Below, piece by piece: positions 4,264 to 29,833 of a stretch of 32,446 nt of DNA. Each line of letters opens with the position of its first letter. The first letter of the stretch is position 1. Origin of the DNA: Bacteroidota bacterium (GTDB taxonomy: Bacteria > Bacteroidota > Bacteroidia > Bacteroidales > VadinHA17); assembly GCA_015222065.1 (NCBI GenBank), contig JADFUQ010000112.1, forward strand, positions 1-32,446, written 5' to 3'. Made by a program: the position numbers and the translations under genes. A model generated the notes under the pieces. That model did not search any database and was not told the origin of the DNA. It saw only the letters and a program-made list of their open reading frames with translations.

Positions 4264-4278
4264 TTAAACTTGTTTTTT

Positions 4279-4311
4279 AACCAGTAACCAGCAACCAGCA
4301 ACCAGTAACCA
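4279..4311. repeat. heptamer tandem array AACCAG[T/C] (~4.7 units)
   Basis: aaccagt-aaccagc-aaccagc-aaccagt-aacca read directly; lies just upstream of the CGGC gene start codon. Confidence 0.9.
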
Positions 4312-5940: not shown

Positions 5941-6165
5941 AATTAATTAGTGTCCGTCAATAAATCCATCATTTTATTTTATTAAGCACCAAATAACAAA
6001 AAACAAATAACAAATAAATCCCAAATACCAATTATCAAATGTCCGAAACTGTTTTGATTATTGAATTTTTGAATATTGTAATTTATTTGAAATTTGGTGC
6101 TTGTCATTTGTGATTTTTAATTCTTATTTAAACATTCGGACTTTGTAGACGGACTCTAATTAACT
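5941..6165. mobile_element. MITE-like inverted-repeat element, copy 1 (ftsA-ftsZ intergenic)
   Basis: Terminal inverted repeats AATTAATTAGTGTCCGTC (5941-5958) and GACGGACTCTAATTAACT (6148-6165); right ~82 bp nearly identical to copy 2; imperfectly self-complementary interior (aagcaccaaataacaaa / tttggtgcttgtcattt). Confidence 0.65.
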
Positions 6166-7469: not shown

Positions 7470-7536
7470 AGTATTAGATTTTTAATGTGGTTATGTAATA
7501 TTCTCTACTTTTTTACCAATAAATAATTTCCTTTTT

Positions 7537-7773
7537 AATAATTAGAGTTTGTCCATATACTCTATATTTCGTTTATAAATAACAAATCTCAAAAAACAAA
7601 TAACAAATAATACCCAATGTTTGAAAAAACAAAATCCAAACAGCACATATACAAGAATTTGTTTGATTTTTTATTCATTAGAATTTGAGATTTATTTGAA
7701 ATTTGGTGCTTGTCATTTGTGATTTTTACTATTTATTTAAACTTTCGGACTTTATAGACGGACTCTAATTAGT
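7537..7773. mobile_element. MITE-like inverted-repeat element, copy 2 (ftsQ-ftsA intergenic)
   Basis: Left end TAATAATTAGAGTTTGTCCATA, right end TATAGACGGACTCTAATTAGTA; 7690-7771 aligns to 6081-6162 with 5 mismatches, including a 39-bp identical block. Confidence 0.65.
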
Positions 7774-20270: not shown

Positions 20271-20512
20271 CTTTGTTAATAACTTTCGTCAAAATTTCCC
20301 ATTTTTTATGAATTATTGAGGTTTAATGAGTACTAATCAGTTGGTTTATTCCCTTTAAAAAGAGATTTACAAGAAAATTAGTAACTAATCAGCCGGCAGT
20401 CAACAGTCCCGTTTACAATTCTCTCATCATAATTTTGCAATATTTTTGCATATTTTTACACTCTTTAACCCTTTACTCATATAGCATGACCAATAGGAAA
20501 TAAAATTCAAAA

Positions 20513-21584: not shown

Positions 21585-21600
21585 ATTTTTTTTTCTGCTA

Positions 21601-21856
21601 TTCCATCTTTCCACTATTCCATTATTCCACTATTCCATCTTTCCATTATTCCAACATTCCATTATTCCAACATTCCATTCTTCCATCTTTCCACTATTCC
21701 ATCTTTCCATTATTCCAACATTCCATTCTTCCATCTTTCCATCTTTCCACTATTCCATTATTCCACTATTCCACTATTCCATTATTCCACTATTCCATTA
21801 TTCCATTCTTCCATCTTTCCACTATTCCATCATTCCATCTTTCCACTATTCCAAAA
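21601..21856. repeat. octamer tandem array (TTCCANNN)x32
   Basis: 32 consecutive units, no indels, TTCCA invariant; variable triplets cta x9, tct x8, tta x7, aca x3, ttc x3, tca x1, aaa x1. Confidence 0.97.
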
Positions 21857-22877: not shown

Positions 22878-22882
22878 CACCT

Positions 22883-22931
22883 ACTGGTTGCTGGTTGCTG
22901 GTTACTGGTTACTGGTTACTGGTTACTGGTC
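22883..22931. repeat. heptamer array [A/G]CTGGTT x7
   Basis: actggtt-gctggtt-gctggtt-actggtt x3-actggtc; begins 5 bp after the GNAT gene stop. Confidence 0.95.
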
Positions 22932-23140
22932 TGACCTTGAACTTTGAACCTTGAACTCTTTTCTTCTCTCATCTCTCATCTCTCATCTCTTTCTTCCTCT
23001 TCCTACTCAACTTACTCAACTACTCAAACATTCTTCAAACCTCAAACCTCAAACAATATTATAACTTTCTCTTTTCCCTTCATTCAATATTTTCATAATT
23101 AAAAAAAATAAGAAATACTTGATAAATAAAAAACTTATTA

Positions 23141-25257: not shown

Positions 25258-26298
25258 ATGAAAAATATAATTAAAACTCTTTCTGCAATAATATTTATCG
25301 CATTGATTTTTAATGCTTGTAAAGAGCAAGTTGAAGAAGAAAAAATCGCGGAAAAAATAAAAGTAAGAACAACAAAGGTTATTGAAAAAGAAATGTCGAT
25401 ACCTGTTCATTGCAGCGGTAAATTATCTTCAAAAACCGAATCGAAATTAAGTTTTAAAACCGGTGGAATTATCAGCAGCATATTTGTTGATGAAGGTCAA
25501 AAAGTGAAAAAAGGACAAGTTTTGGCAAAGCTTAATCTTTCTGAAATTCAGCCACAGGTAAATCAGGCAAGACTTGGTTTGGATAAAGCCGAACGGGATT
25601 TCAGGAGGGCTAATAATTTGTATAAGGACAGTGTTGCTACTCTTGAGCAACTGCAAAATGTTACAACTGCTCTAAATATTGCAAAATCAAATGTGGAAAT
25701 AGCCGAATTTAATCTGCAATACTCAACAATCAAAGCCCCGTCAAACGGTAAAATTTTAAAACGTATTGCCGAAGAAAACGAAATCGTCGGACCCGGCAAC
25801 CCTGTGTTTTTGTTTGGTTCTACTGATAATGACTGGATTGCCAGAGTGAATATTACTGATAAGGATATTTTTTCGCTCCAACTTAATGACAAGGCAGAAA
25901 TACAATTTGATGCTTATCCCGATAAAACTTTCACGGCAATTGTTACCGTAATTGGAAACTTAGCCGACCCATATACAGGAACCTACGAAGTTGAACTTAC
26001 GCTAAAACAAACAGATGCAAAATTTGCTTCAGGATTAATTGCAAGTGTGGATATTTATCCTTCAAAAAAAGAAATATTTAAAATCATTTCTGTTAATGCT
26101 CTTATAGAAGGCAATGAAACGGAAGGTTATATATATCAGGTTATTAATAAAAGCAAGGTTAAAAAGTTAAGAATTAAAATTCACAAGATCTCTGATAACG
26201 ATTTATTTATTAAATCAGGCGTAGAAACCGGAGCCGAGATAATCACCGAAGGAGTGAGTTATGTTAATGGAACGTCTGAAGTTAAAGTAATAAAATAG
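25258..26298 (+). CDS. RND efflux periplasmic adaptor subunit (HlyD/MFP)
   Basis: Lipoprotein-like N-terminus (LIFNACKEQ), SGKLSSKTESKLSFKTGGIISSIFVDEGQKVKKGQVLAKL, YSTIKAPSNGKILKR. Confidence 0.93.
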   Translation: MKNIIKTLSAIIFIALIFNACKEQVEEEKIAEKIKVRTTKVIEKEMSIPVHCSGKLSSKTESKLSFKTGGIISSIFVDEGQKVKKGQVLAKLNLSEIQPQVNQARLGLDKAERDFRRANNLYKDSVATLEQLQNVTTALNIAKSNVEIAEFNLQYSTIKAPSNGKILKRIAEENEIVGPGNPVFLFGSTDNDWIARVNITDKDIFSLQLNDKAEIQFDAYPDKTFTAIVTVIGNLADPYTGTYEVELTLKQTDAKFASGLIASVDIYPSKKEIFKIISVNALIEGNETEGYIYQVINKSKVKKLRIKIHKISDNDLFIKSGVETGAEIITEGVSYVNGTSEVKVIK

Positions 26299-26330
26299 CT
26301 TTTAGCTGTTGGCTGTTAGCTTTTAGCTTT
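26296..26330. repeat. heptamer array TAGCTTT/TAGCTGT/TGGCTGT x5
   Basis: tagcttt-tagctgt-tggctgt-tagcttt-tagcttt; the adaptor stop TAG (26296-26298) is the first triplet of the array. Confidence 0.92.
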
Positions 26331-26379
26331 ACTATCATAAATTAATGCTTTATCTATTAAAACCTTTAAAAAATAAATT

Positions 26380-26739
26380 ATGAAAAATTTTAGAAAATTA
26401 ATCATTTGGCAAAAAGGAATTGATTTGGTAATTGACATTTATAAGTTCTCAAATGATTTGCCATCAGATGAAAAATATGGTTTAATAAGTCAAATACGAC
26501 GAGCATCAGTATCAATTCCTTCAAATATTGCCGAAGGTTCTTCGAGGTATAGTGAAAAAGATTTTAAACGTTTTCTTGAAATTGCTATAGGTTCAGCTTT
26601 TGAGTTAGAAACTCAATTACTAATAATCCAAAAGTTATGTTTAATTGACAAAAGCAAGTGTGATATACTTATCCAGTCGTTACAAGAAGAACAAAAAATG
26701 ATCAATAGTTTGATTACTAAAATTAAAACCAACAGCTAA
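26380..26739 (+). CDS. four helix bundle protein (S23/23S rRNA IVS-type family)
   Basis: LIIWQKGIDLVIDIYKFSNDLPSDEKYGLISQIRRASVSIPSNIAEGSSRYSEKDFKRFLEIAIGSAFELETQLLI is the family's canonical motif set; 119 aa. Confidence 0.93.
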   Translation: MKNFRKLIIWQKGIDLVIDIYKFSNDLPSDEKYGLISQIRRASVSIPSNIAEGSSRYSEKDFKRFLEIAIGSAFELETQLLIIQKLCLIDKSKCDILIQSLQEEQKMINSLITKIKTNS

Positions 26740-26759
26740 CAGCTAATAACTAACAGCTA
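26732..26759. repeat. inverted heptamer array ACAGCTA/ATAACTA x4
   Basis: acagcta-acagcta-ataacta-acagcta; reverse complement of the family at 26296-26330; contains the four-helix-bundle stop TAA (26737-26739). Confidence 0.92.
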
Positions 26760-26764
26760 ATAAA

Positions 26765-29700
26765 ATGAAACTACCTAAAATATCGATTAGCAATTATCAA
26801 TTCACAATCATTGTATTTATCCTGATTACAATAGCCGGATTGAATTCGTACCTGAATATGCCCCGTATGGAAAATCCTGAGATGAAAATACCGGGGGCTT
26901 CTGTGGTGGTAATTTATCCGGGCACTAACCCTGTTGATATGGAACAATTGGTTGTTACACCAATTGAAGATGTTCTTAATGAACTGGACGATATTAAAAT
27001 GATTGAAACGAATATTAACGATGGTCTCGCTATAATTAATATTGAATTTTATTATGGAACCGATGCTGATAAAAAATATGATGATGTCGTAGAAAAAGTA
27101 AATACAGTAAGAAATGACCTGCCCGGCGATATTTACGAAATTAATATTCAACAATGGACCGTATCGGATGTTTGTATGATGCAACTTGCCCTTGTTTCCG
27201 ACAGCGTTGAATACAGGATTTTGCAGGAAAAAGCAGAGAAACTTGAAAAAGAGTTAAAAAAAGAAAGCGGTGTTAAAAAAGTGGAAATTTTTGCTTATCC
27301 CGAGCAAGAGGTAAGAATTTCGCTTGATATTGAAAAAATGGCTCAGATGAATATTTCTCTCGATAATATTACCAATGCTATAAAAAGTAATAATGCAAAT
27401 ATTCCAGGTGGAGCTATAACCCTGGATGATAAAAGCTTTAATATAAAAACAAGTGGTTCGTACAATAATCTTGATGAGATACGAAATACGGTAGTCAATT
27501 CATATCAGGGCAGGTTGATTTATCTGAAAAATATTGCAAAAGTAAATTTTGATTATGAAGATACAAGATATCTTGCACGTCTGTCGGGCAAAAGAGCAAT
27601 ATATATTACCCTTAAGCAAAAAGAAGGACGAAACGTTTTTAAAACAACCGAAGGTGTTAAAGCAAAAATAAATAAATTCAAAGAAAGCCTGGATGATGAT
27701 ATTAGTTTGGAATATGTTTATGACCAGTCGGAAGAAGTAGCTACAAAAATCAATAACTTTCAGTCAAATCTTTTGCAAGGGATAATTCTGGTAGGTATAA
27801 TTATTTTGCTTGCGCTGGGTTTTAAATCTGCATTAATTGTAATAATTGCAATTCCTTTATCAATCATTACAGGGCTTGCTTTTGTTGACTGGGCAGGATT
27901 CGGGTTGGAACAAATGTCAATTGCCGGGCTGGTGATTGTTTTAGGCTTGCTGGTGGACAATTCCATTGTTATGACTGAAAATATCAACCGGTTTCTATCA
28001 ATGGGATACAAACCTAAAGAAGCAGCAATAAAAGGAGCCTCCGAAATTGGCTGGCCTATTGTAAGTGCTACAGTTACAACCTTACTGGCGTTCATACCGA
28101 TAATTCTAATACCTGAAAAAGTAGGGCAGTTTATACGTAGTCAGCCTGTAACCATTATGGCGACACTTTCGGTTTCTTTGTTTATAGCTCTTACTTTAAC
28201 TCCGCTTATTGCAAGCAGAATATTTAAGCAAAAATCAAATAATAATTTAATTGAAACAAAAAAGAAAAACAGGCACAGGTATCTGAGACGATTTATTGAA
28301 GGACCTTACAGAAAAATCTTATCCTTTTCATTGTCCCATAAAGTTCTGATACTAATTGGTGCTCTTGCTGTTTTATTTGGCTCTGTGTTTATGGTTAAGT
28401 TTGTCGGGTTTAGCTTATTCCCTAAAGCCGAAAAGCCTCAGTTTCTGATTAAAATAAATCTTCCCGAAGGGACTAATCTTGATAAAACTAACAGCATGGT
28501 CAGTGAAGTTGAAACTATTTTAGATACAATTGAATATGTGAAATATTATGCTTCAAATATTGGTCACGGAAATCCACGCATTTATTATAATGTAATGTCA
28601 AAAAACTATTTGAAAAATTATGGTGATATTTTTGTTTTTTTAAAAGAGTATGATATTGAAAAATTCGATAATTTGATTTCACAATTACGAAAAACTTTCA
28701 ATAATTTTCCAGGAGCTAAAATCAATATTAAAGAATTTGAGCAAGGAACCCCAATAGCTGCGCCTATTATGGTATATATCGAAGGTGATAATATTGACGA
28801 GCTTAAAGAAATTGCATCGAATGTTGAAAAATTTATCGAAAATGAAAAAGGGACTATAAATATTAATAACGAATTAGCAAAATCACGAACCGACCTTTTT
28901 ATTAATATTAATAAAGAAAAAGCTAATTTATTTGGTGTACCGATACACGAAATTGATAAAACTATTAGAACAGCAATTACAGGAATGAACATTTCGAAAT
29001 TTAGAGATAAAGACGGTGAAGAATTTAATATTGTAATGAGATTGCCTTTTGAAGATAAAATTAAAATGAGCGATTTTGATAAGATTTATGTAAAATCAAT
29101 GTCAGGTAAATTAATCCCGTTAAGGCAACTTGCATCTATTGAGTTAAAAAAAGCTCCAAGTTTGATAACACACTACAATCTTAGCAGAACTGCCTTAATA
29201 ACTGCCGACCTTGAAAAGGGGGTAAACCTTGATGAAATAATGGAACCGGTAATTCAAAAGTTAAATCAATATTCTTTCCCAAACGGTTATACATACAGAA
29301 TCGCAGGAGAGTTAGAAAGCCGGGGCGAAGCATTTGGCGGAATGAAAATTGCAATGATAATAGCTTTAATCTCAATATTTGCTGTTCTGGTTTTGCAGTT
29401 CAAATCTTTCACTCAGCCATTGATTATTTTTACTGCAATACCTTTAGCTTTAATCGGCTCAATATGGGCCTTGTTTATTACAGGCAATACCTTCTCGTTT
29501 GCAGCATTAATTGGTTTGTTAAGCTTAATCGGGATAGTAATAAATAATTCAATCATATTGGTTGATTATACAAACAAACTCCGGGACAGCGGCAAATCAA
29601 TAATTGAATCACTGAAAATTGCAGGTGAAATCCGTTTTACTCCAATCATTCTAACAACCCTGACAACAATCGGTGGATTATTACCATTAACATTACGCGG

Positions 29701-29833
29701 CGGCACAATGTGGGCACCAATGGGCTGGGCAATTATCGGGGGATTGCTCGTTTCAACTATGCTTACGCTGATTATTGTACCGGTTTTATATAAGGCTTTT
29801 TCAGTAAAACATTTTGAAAAAAAGGAATCATAA
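26765..29833 (+). CDS. RND-family efflux pump inner-membrane permease (AcrB/MMPL-like)
   Basis: 1022 aa; NPRMENPEMK-like N-terminus, VVIYPGTNPVDMEQLVVTPIED, GLLVDNSIVMTENINRF, GIVINNSIILVDYTNKL, two TM blocks. Confidence 0.96.
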   Translation: MKLPKISISNYQFTIIVFILITIAGLNSYLNMPRMENPEMKIPGASVVVIYPGTNPVDMEQLVVTPIEDVLNELDDIKMIETNINDGLAIINIEFYYGTDADKKYDDVVEKVNTVRNDLPGDIYEINIQQWTVSDVCMMQLALVSDSVEYRILQEKAEKLEKELKKESGVKKVEIFAYPEQEVRISLDIEKMAQMNISLDNITNAIKSNNANIPGGAITLDDKSFNIKTSGSYNNLDEIRNTVVNSYQGRLIYLKNIAKVNFDYEDTRYLARLSGKRAIYITLKQKEGRNVFKTTEGVKAKINKFKESLDDDISLEYVYDQSEEVATKINNFQSNLLQGIILVGIIILLALGFKSALIVIIAIPLSIITGLAFVDWAGFGLEQMSIAGLVIVLGLLVDNSIVMTENINRFLSMGYKPKEAAIKGASEIGWPIVSATVTTLLAFIPIILIPEKVGQFIRSQPVTIMATLSVSLFIALTLTPLIASRIFKQKSNNNLIETKKKNRHRYLRRFIEGPYRKILSFSLSHKVLILIGALAVLFGSVFMVKFVGFSLFPKAEKPQFLIKINLPEGTNLDKTNSMVSEVETILDTIEYVKYYASNIGHGNPRIYYNVMSKNYLKNYGDIFVFLKEYDIEKFDNLISQLRKTFNNFPGAKINIKEFEQGTPIAAPIMVYIEGDNIDELKEIASNVEKFIENEKGTININNELAKSRTDLFININKEKANLFGVPIHEIDKTIRTAITGMNISKFRDKDGEEFNIVMRLPFEDKIKMSDFDKIYVKSMSGKLIPLRQLASIELKKAPSLITHYNLSRTALITADLEKGVNLDEIMEPVIQKLNQYSFPNGYTYRIAGELESRGEAFGGMKIAMIIALISIFAVLVLQFKSFTQPLIIFTAIPLALIGSIWALFITGNTFSFAALIGLLSLIGIVINNSIILVDYTNKLRDSGKSIIESLKIAGEIRFTPIILTTLTTIGGLLPLTLRGGTMWAPMGWAIIGGLLVSTMLTLIIVPVLYKAFSVKHFEKKES

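Follow-up and report, generated by a model that had tools for sequence, protein, structure and literature searches.

The stretch of DNA analysed here (32,446 nucleotides, hereafter the window) carries an RND operon in which an S23-family gene, bounded on both sides by tandem heptamer arrays, lies between the adaptor and permease genes, and this raises the question of whether gene and arrays together are an inserted copy of a small dispersed element and, if so, how such an element might move. The family concerned (PF05635) is widespread but functionally uncharacterized, and since the 1990s there has been no explanation for its occurrence in rRNA intervening sequences.

Organization of the window cassette

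The initial annotation, made from the sequence alone, had claimed that an S23/IVS-type gene separates the RND adaptor and permease genes, that five TAGCTKT units lie to the left of this gene and four ACAGCTA units to its right, and that the adaptor stop codon falls within the left array and the S23 stop codon within the right one. All of these claims held (Table 1). Profile searches identified the S23 gene (PF05635, 131.9 bits against a cut-off of 33.8; TIGR02436, 129.7 bits against a cut-off of 24), and its operon neighbours are an OEP/TolC-type gene, an HlyD-type adaptor and an AcrB-type permease. The array coordinates were correct, the left units reading TAGCTTT-TAGCTGT-TGGCTGT-TAGCTTT-TAGCTTT and the right ones ACAGCTA-ACAGCTA-ATAACTA-ACAGCTA, of which the third is degenerate. 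The left array opens with the adaptor stop TAG (26296-26298), the S23 gene terminates with AAC AGC TAA within the right array, and the acrB ATG follows at 26765. The arms are inverted and are thus terminal inverted repeats, as in an inverted-repeat transposon or MITE. As a target duplication, the AT-rich AATAAAAT repeat at both edges is suggestive only; excision of the cassette together with one AATAAAAT copy would leave an adaptor stop TGA overlapping the acrB ATG, the arrangement found in two relatives described below (L067 and L070). In the 3.9-Mb window genome (G000), TAGCTNTTAGCTNT occurs in 10 copies and the reversed pattern in none. The cassette does not lie inside a 23S rRNA gene, since no Rfam match was found in the window and its flanks are the adaptor and permease genes; a Rfam scan of the window and ten S23 loci returned just tRNAs and one unrelated cis-regulatory element.

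Table 1. Features of the S23 cassette and its neighbours, in window coordinates; cassette boundaries and target-site duplication are inferred
Feature	Coordinates	Strand	Evidence
RND adaptor (membrane fusion protein), upstream neighbour	25258..26298	+	HlyD_D23 / HlyD_3 match
Left copy of candidate 8-bp target-site duplication AATAAAAT	26289..26296	+	identical 8-mer at both edges
Left arm, tandem heptamers TAGCTKT x5	26296..26330	+	TRF period 7, 5.0 copies
S23 / 23S-rRNA-intervening-sequence-type four-helix-bundle protein, 119 aa	26380..26739	+	PF05635, TIGR02436
Right arm, ACAGCTA x4, reverse complement of left arm	26732..26759	+	TRF period 7, 4.3 copies
Right copy of candidate target-site duplication AATAAAAT, overlapping acrB start codon	26759..26766	+	identical 8-mer
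Whole inferred cassette, 462 bp, between the two AATAAAAT copies	26297..26758	+	boundaries inferred
RND permease (AcrB/AcrD/AcrF), downstream neighbour	26765..29833	+	ACR_tran 711 bits

Inverted arrays around S23 genes

The window genome contains 21 PF05635 matches, and most of its clear S23 genes are flanked by matching inverted arrays built from other units, at least five of which were recognized (GTGAGTAG, GAAAGAGC, AGTCGGC/AGTCCAC, TGGAATAA and AAATGATT). Repeat units are 7-8 bp long, alike within one element and different between elements; the single unit TAGCTNT was therefore rejected as the mark of the element, and the test of TAGCTNT that the initial annotation proposed would, on its own, miss the generality of the pattern. 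By comparing the upstream flank of each gene with the reverse complement of its downstream flank, we obtained a median arm score of 29.5 for 56 S23 genes from G000 and its relatives; control ORFs, mismatched arms and random positions all gave 19. For a further set of 75 S23 genes from named genomes, spanning Acidobacteriota, Omnitrophota, Atribacterota, Gastranaerophilales, Selenomonadales and Verrucomicrobiota, among others, the median was 33, with mismatched arms at 18 and random positions from these loci at 19. This second set was retrieved by similarity to the subclade of the window protein and orthologous insertions are not independent, so the counts given here, pooled ones included, are not fully independent. 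When the data were pooled (150 bp flanks, score of at least 24), 90 of 127 S23 genes (71%) had matching inverted arms, a score reached by 0.95% of random positions (n = 1161) and by 4.5% of mismatched arm pairs; many of the genes below this threshold show short or one-sided arrays by eye. Left arms are mostly G-rich (G > C in 67 of 78 elements, C > G in 5). The arms are thus beyond chance, and their occurrence as inverted pairs is almost confined to S23.

The initial annotation had also proposed that arrays should be enriched at S23 genes, which held: tandem arrays of period 6-9 were present in 66% of 220 S23-adjoining gaps and 24% of 211 other gaps in the same loci. These statistics rest on retrieved loci, many of them metagenome assemblies, and not on the whole G000 genome. 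One qualification is that arrays are also found alone or in pairs without S23. Phage records gave no S23 match.

Several further arrays were observed. An intergenic segment before a TetR gene (window 22882-23054) is a mosaic of five different tandem arrays (TACTGGT, TTGAACT, TCTCTCA, CTACTCAA and TCAAACC), of which TACTGGT and TCAAACC match the arms of S23 cassettes L096 and L049; it might be a graveyard of cassette arms. A lone array of five TAACCAG units at 4278-4311 is the reverse complement of the TACTGGT-type unit at 22882. At 21598-21853, about 32 copies of the 8-mer CTATTCCA/TCTTTCCAT occupy a short open frame, and this unit family is common to S23 cassettes L005 and L100. A recurrent upstream block beginning with GCTRTTAGCTNTTAGCAAGTTAAC and followed by TTCCA-type arrays (L022, L024, L026, L031) precedes several unrelated genes, without S23. 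On the Pseudanabaena galeata plasmid pPg_01 (L354), an S23 gene lies between cas6 and cas4 with AAAGCTA and AAAGCCA arrays that are direct, not inverted.

Occupied and empty junctions

Whether the cassette was inserted can be judged from the same junctions in other genomes. In all six relatives with a readable adaptor-permease junction (L062, L063, L065, L066, L067, L070) the two genes are adjacent and S23 is lacking, and in two of them (L067 and L070) the adaptor stop and permease start overlap as ATGA; these relatives are distant, with merely 43-52% adaptor identity. Within the genus, the mce-pccB junction carries an S23 cassette in G000 and G005 and is empty in G004, while G003 retains only a right-arm remnant; in G001 the two arms persist and enclose a different, nested insert. 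At the kdsA junction, G006 carries an S23 cassette that follows the stop codon immediately, G002 has an insert made up of arrays only, and G001 has no insert. Cyanobacterial plasmids provide a further case: in Calothrix brevissima an S23 cassette separates an integrase gene from its neighbour, and these two genes lie 3 bp from each other in Tolypothrix, Aulosira and Nostoc carneum; the empty-site plasmids are 84-94% identical (Tolypothrix, 94% over the integrase). Close relatives thus differ in whether a given junction holds a cassette. Empty sites were therefore found at the window junction, within the genus and on closely related plasmids, and neither outcome that would have refuted an insertion was met, since empty sites exist and arrays are not equally common away from S23. 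The claim of an approximately 0.46 kb cassette with inverted repeat ends inserted at a gene end is supported, although its mechanism of movement is unknown. There is good support for the view that the window cassette is an inserted copy of a dispersing small element, and for the dispersal of S23 in cassette form.

Arms and S23 are co-inherited even where the genomic context differs. Cassette pairs from different contexts had the same repeat unit in 10 of 11 cases when protein similarity was 0.7 or more (Mantel p=0.002), in 20% of cases at a similarity of 0.55-0.7, and in about 1% or fewer below that. The nearest relatives of the window S23 (57-63% identity) lie at hemL/hemD-hemE junctions of Polaribacter, Tenacibaculum and kin (Flavobacteriaceae) and have the TAGCTTT unit in common with it, and cassettes from Omnitrophota and Atribacterota have a common unit and S23 proteins that are 66% identical. 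Different cassettes have also reached the same junctions independently: the S23 of L285 at hemE is closest to S23s from other places, and three unrelated S23s (L053, L193, L198) occupy the cysD-cysN junction. Concerted evolution of the arms among hemE orthologues was considered and rejected, as arms in the TAGCTTT group matched their own partners no better than they matched the arms of other orthologues. We also observed that L005 and L100, S23 elements at different loci in two genera, have about 110 bp of inverted terminal sequence in common beyond the array.

These observations bear on the possibility that arrays came first, i.e., that heptamer arrays are slippage-grown hot spots which S23 entered by inter-array recombination. 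In its favour, arrays are frequent without S23 (the 24% of other gaps noted above) and also occur without it at junctions used by S23 cassettes (the adaptor-acrB junction of G009, the kdsA junction of G002, several Flavobacteriaceae hem junctions and a Nostoc plasmid TraM junction), and they expand fast between close relatives (L054 vs L093). However, inverted arms with a common unit would not be expected from recombination into one array, several empty sites are without any array, and unit and S23 are co-inherited. We consider this explanation unlikely.

Orientation and selection

For the 124 S23 genes with both neighbours classed, 104 were in sense between co-directional neighbours, none was antisense and 20 were in mixed contexts; among S23-less derivatives of one family, 10 lay in sense and 6 in antisense. 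The sense rule is not absolute, since two S23 genes on plasmids run antisense to the genes on either side. The simplest reading, which is an inference, is that S23 is promoterless and retained only where an operon expresses it; transcript-directed insertion could yield an identical picture. S23 is under purifying selection (dN/dS 0.08-0.31, copies at different loci included), and therefore the protein is needed by something. Purifying selection and sense orientation would also suit an ordinary operon gene with incidental arrays, but S23 occurs sporadically and beside unrelated genes, has entered the same junctions independently more than once and is framed by matched inverted arms, all of which speaks against this explanation, as do the empty sites, and we regard it as very unlikely.

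A further alternative is RNA-mediated dispersal, in which the element would insert as RNA into operon messages or rRNA loops and be copied back by a reverse transcriptase, with S23 acting like Avd. It could account for the strict sense orientation, which rRNA intervening sequences also show (PMC4990558), and for the lack of target duplication in most copies. The arms can pair in a predicted RNA fold (z = -4.2), and S23 has a weak similarity to Avd, the Avd model NF033474 giving 20 bits on the window protein against a cut-off of 80. Against it, RVT_1 was not found in G000 (91.5% complete) or in most S23-rich relatives, and the genomes that do bear a reverse transcriptase (G017-G019) have no S23. 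Arm mismatches show no G-U bias (151 vs 131, p=0.26), and one subfamily has DNA-type terminal inverted repeats (TIRs) and duplications, as described below. An RNA route is accordingly doubtful; both a reverse-transcriptase partner, missing from most S23-rich genomes, and RNA-level selection on the arms through G-U wobble, which was not seen, were set aside.

Ends of the elements and search for a transposase

Signs of DNA-type movement were found in one subfamily. Elements with AGTCGGC arms carry GTAACTAWTCAGT as an outer inverted repeat; G000 contains 95 matches to it but none to the reversed pattern. In 23 bounded copies, several of which hold S23 remnants, the flanks match at exactly 8 bp (0.77 identity vs 0.42 in the control). 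A second S23 family has a different TIR, AGTGTCATGTCAA, and CTAG-like flanks. For 92 elements in general, no target duplication peak was seen at any length, and at two cyanobacterial plasmid junctions no duplication was visible, a few target bases being replaced instead. Since there is no common duplication length and plasmid bases were replaced, the mode of movement may differ between subfamilies, or duplications may have decayed.

No common transposase was identified among the families considered, IS66 and Y1/RAYT. The ends lacking an assigned transposase are GTAACTAWTCAGTGTC with the 8-bp duplication. As hinted by the GTAA end and the 8-bp duplication, IS66 was considered as a transposase acting in trans and rejected: it is absent from G000, as from most of the genus, and no matching ends were found. 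No facing TIR pairs at transposon length occurred among the GTAACTAWTCAGT matches inspected in G000. Y1/RAYT transposases were likewise rejected as owners of the arms, since RAYT genes in these genomes carry their own palindromic REPs.

Other elements were noted in passing. A lone left end of the AGTCGGC subfamily, GTAACTAATCAGCCGGCAGTCAACAGTCC, lies at window 20381-20409. Two copies of an inverted AAATAAC-array element without S23 (window 5947-6156 and ~7530-7765) have the outer ends TTAGTGTCCGTC / GACGGACTC; the S23 element of L165 contains a similar nested insert. RAYT-type Y1 transposase genes with palindromic REPs (e.g., GTCCCGTAGGGAC) were observed in L373, L375, L376 and L379, apart from heptamer arms.

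It remains possible that S23 is a passenger of inverted-repeat transposons or MITEs mobilized by DDE-type transposases in trans, plays no part in the movement and is kept for host benefit. The TIR GTAACTAWTCAGT with 8-bp duplications in one subfamily, the TIR AGTGTCATGTCAA in the second family and the abundance of S23-less derivatives are consistent with this explanation, and purifying selection fits host benefit equally well. However, the link between S23 and arrays spans many lineages and unit types without such TIRs, and most elements are without duplication.

Proposed mechanism and implications

The explanation that we prefer is a selfish S23 cassette in which a promoterless S23 gene is enclosed by a G-rich tandem array of 7-8 bp units on one side and the reverse complement of that array on the other, the arms being its ends. 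Such a cassette would insert into short stop-to-start junctions of operons and survive only where read-through transcription expresses S23. Solved structures of the S23 family (2GSC, 2RLD) contain five chains each, and a pentameric S23 would probably work on the arms by binding DNA ends or hairpins, with strand transfer provided in trans; movement would leave an 8-bp target duplication in at least one subfamily. S23-less derivatives do accumulate. That the arms are functional ends is likely, albeit inferred. A part of the S23 protein in movement is a reasonable inference but no more than that; direct evidence is lacking that S23 binds DNA or that any copy is active. The explanation as a whole is held with moderate confidence.

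On a bolder reading, which is conceivable at present, S23 proteins might be mobility factors of a new class of very small (~0.45 kb) mobile elements; that a pentameric S23 ring reads the arrays, that the repeat co-evolves with the protein and that operon stop-to-start junctions are targeted are likewise possibilities. If this were true, the class would include the S23 genes of 23S rRNA intervening sequences, as elements that had inserted into rRNA, and part of the heptamer repeats that lack an explanation in cyanobacteria and Bacteroidota would be cassette remains. S23 genes, rRNA intervening sequences and intergenic heptamer repeats are three loose ends that could potentially be tied together. 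The cross-phylum rule (matched inverted arms, sense to the operon, empty sites among close relatives) offers a testable genomic role for PF05635 and implies that many genes annotated as 'four helix bundle protein' within operons are insertions, which bears on the reading of operon structure. The S23 cassette thus probably represents a widespread, undescribed small mobile element of many bacterial phyla, its movement being inferred.

Comparison with known systems

In the open-access literature searched (open-licence papers only), we found no earlier description of S23 together with inverted heptamer arrays. The closest described counterpart of the S23 cassette is the 23S rRNA intervening sequence with an S23 ORF, such as that of Coxiella burnetii (428 nt), whose mobility is only hypothesised (PMC4990558). 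The two have in common the protein family, a similar size, terminal inverted repeats and an ORF in sense to the host transcript; however, the window cassette lies in a protein operon rather than in rRNA, and the arms of S23 cassettes are tandem 7-8-mer arrays of element-specific units, without a G-U bias that would suggest a selected RNA stem. REP-RAYT systems, present in the same genomes, also combine a small gene between inverted repeats with gene-less dispersed repeat copies, but S23 lacks the Y1 domain and the cassette arms are tandem heptamers instead of palindromes. Like MITEs, including a tandem-repeat-bearing Porphyromonas MITE (PMC4596501), S23 cassettes are short inverted-repeat elements, and one subfamily has TIRs and 8-bp duplications; unlike them, they encode a conserved protein under selection and mostly lack a clear duplication, and no autonomous transposon matching them was found. 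S23 is a distant homologue of the DGR accessory protein Avd within the same four-helix-bundle superfamily, although the window protein falls under the Avd model cut-off and its genome has no reverse transcriptase. Finally, the TAACTGA heptamer repeats of cyanobacteria, Beggiatoaceae and Bacteroidetes (PMC4679880) are intergenic and tandem, their spread is unexplained, and S23 is not mentioned in that study; in contrast to those repeats, the heptamers of S23 cassettes form inverted pairs around S23 and also occur on cyanobacterial plasmids.
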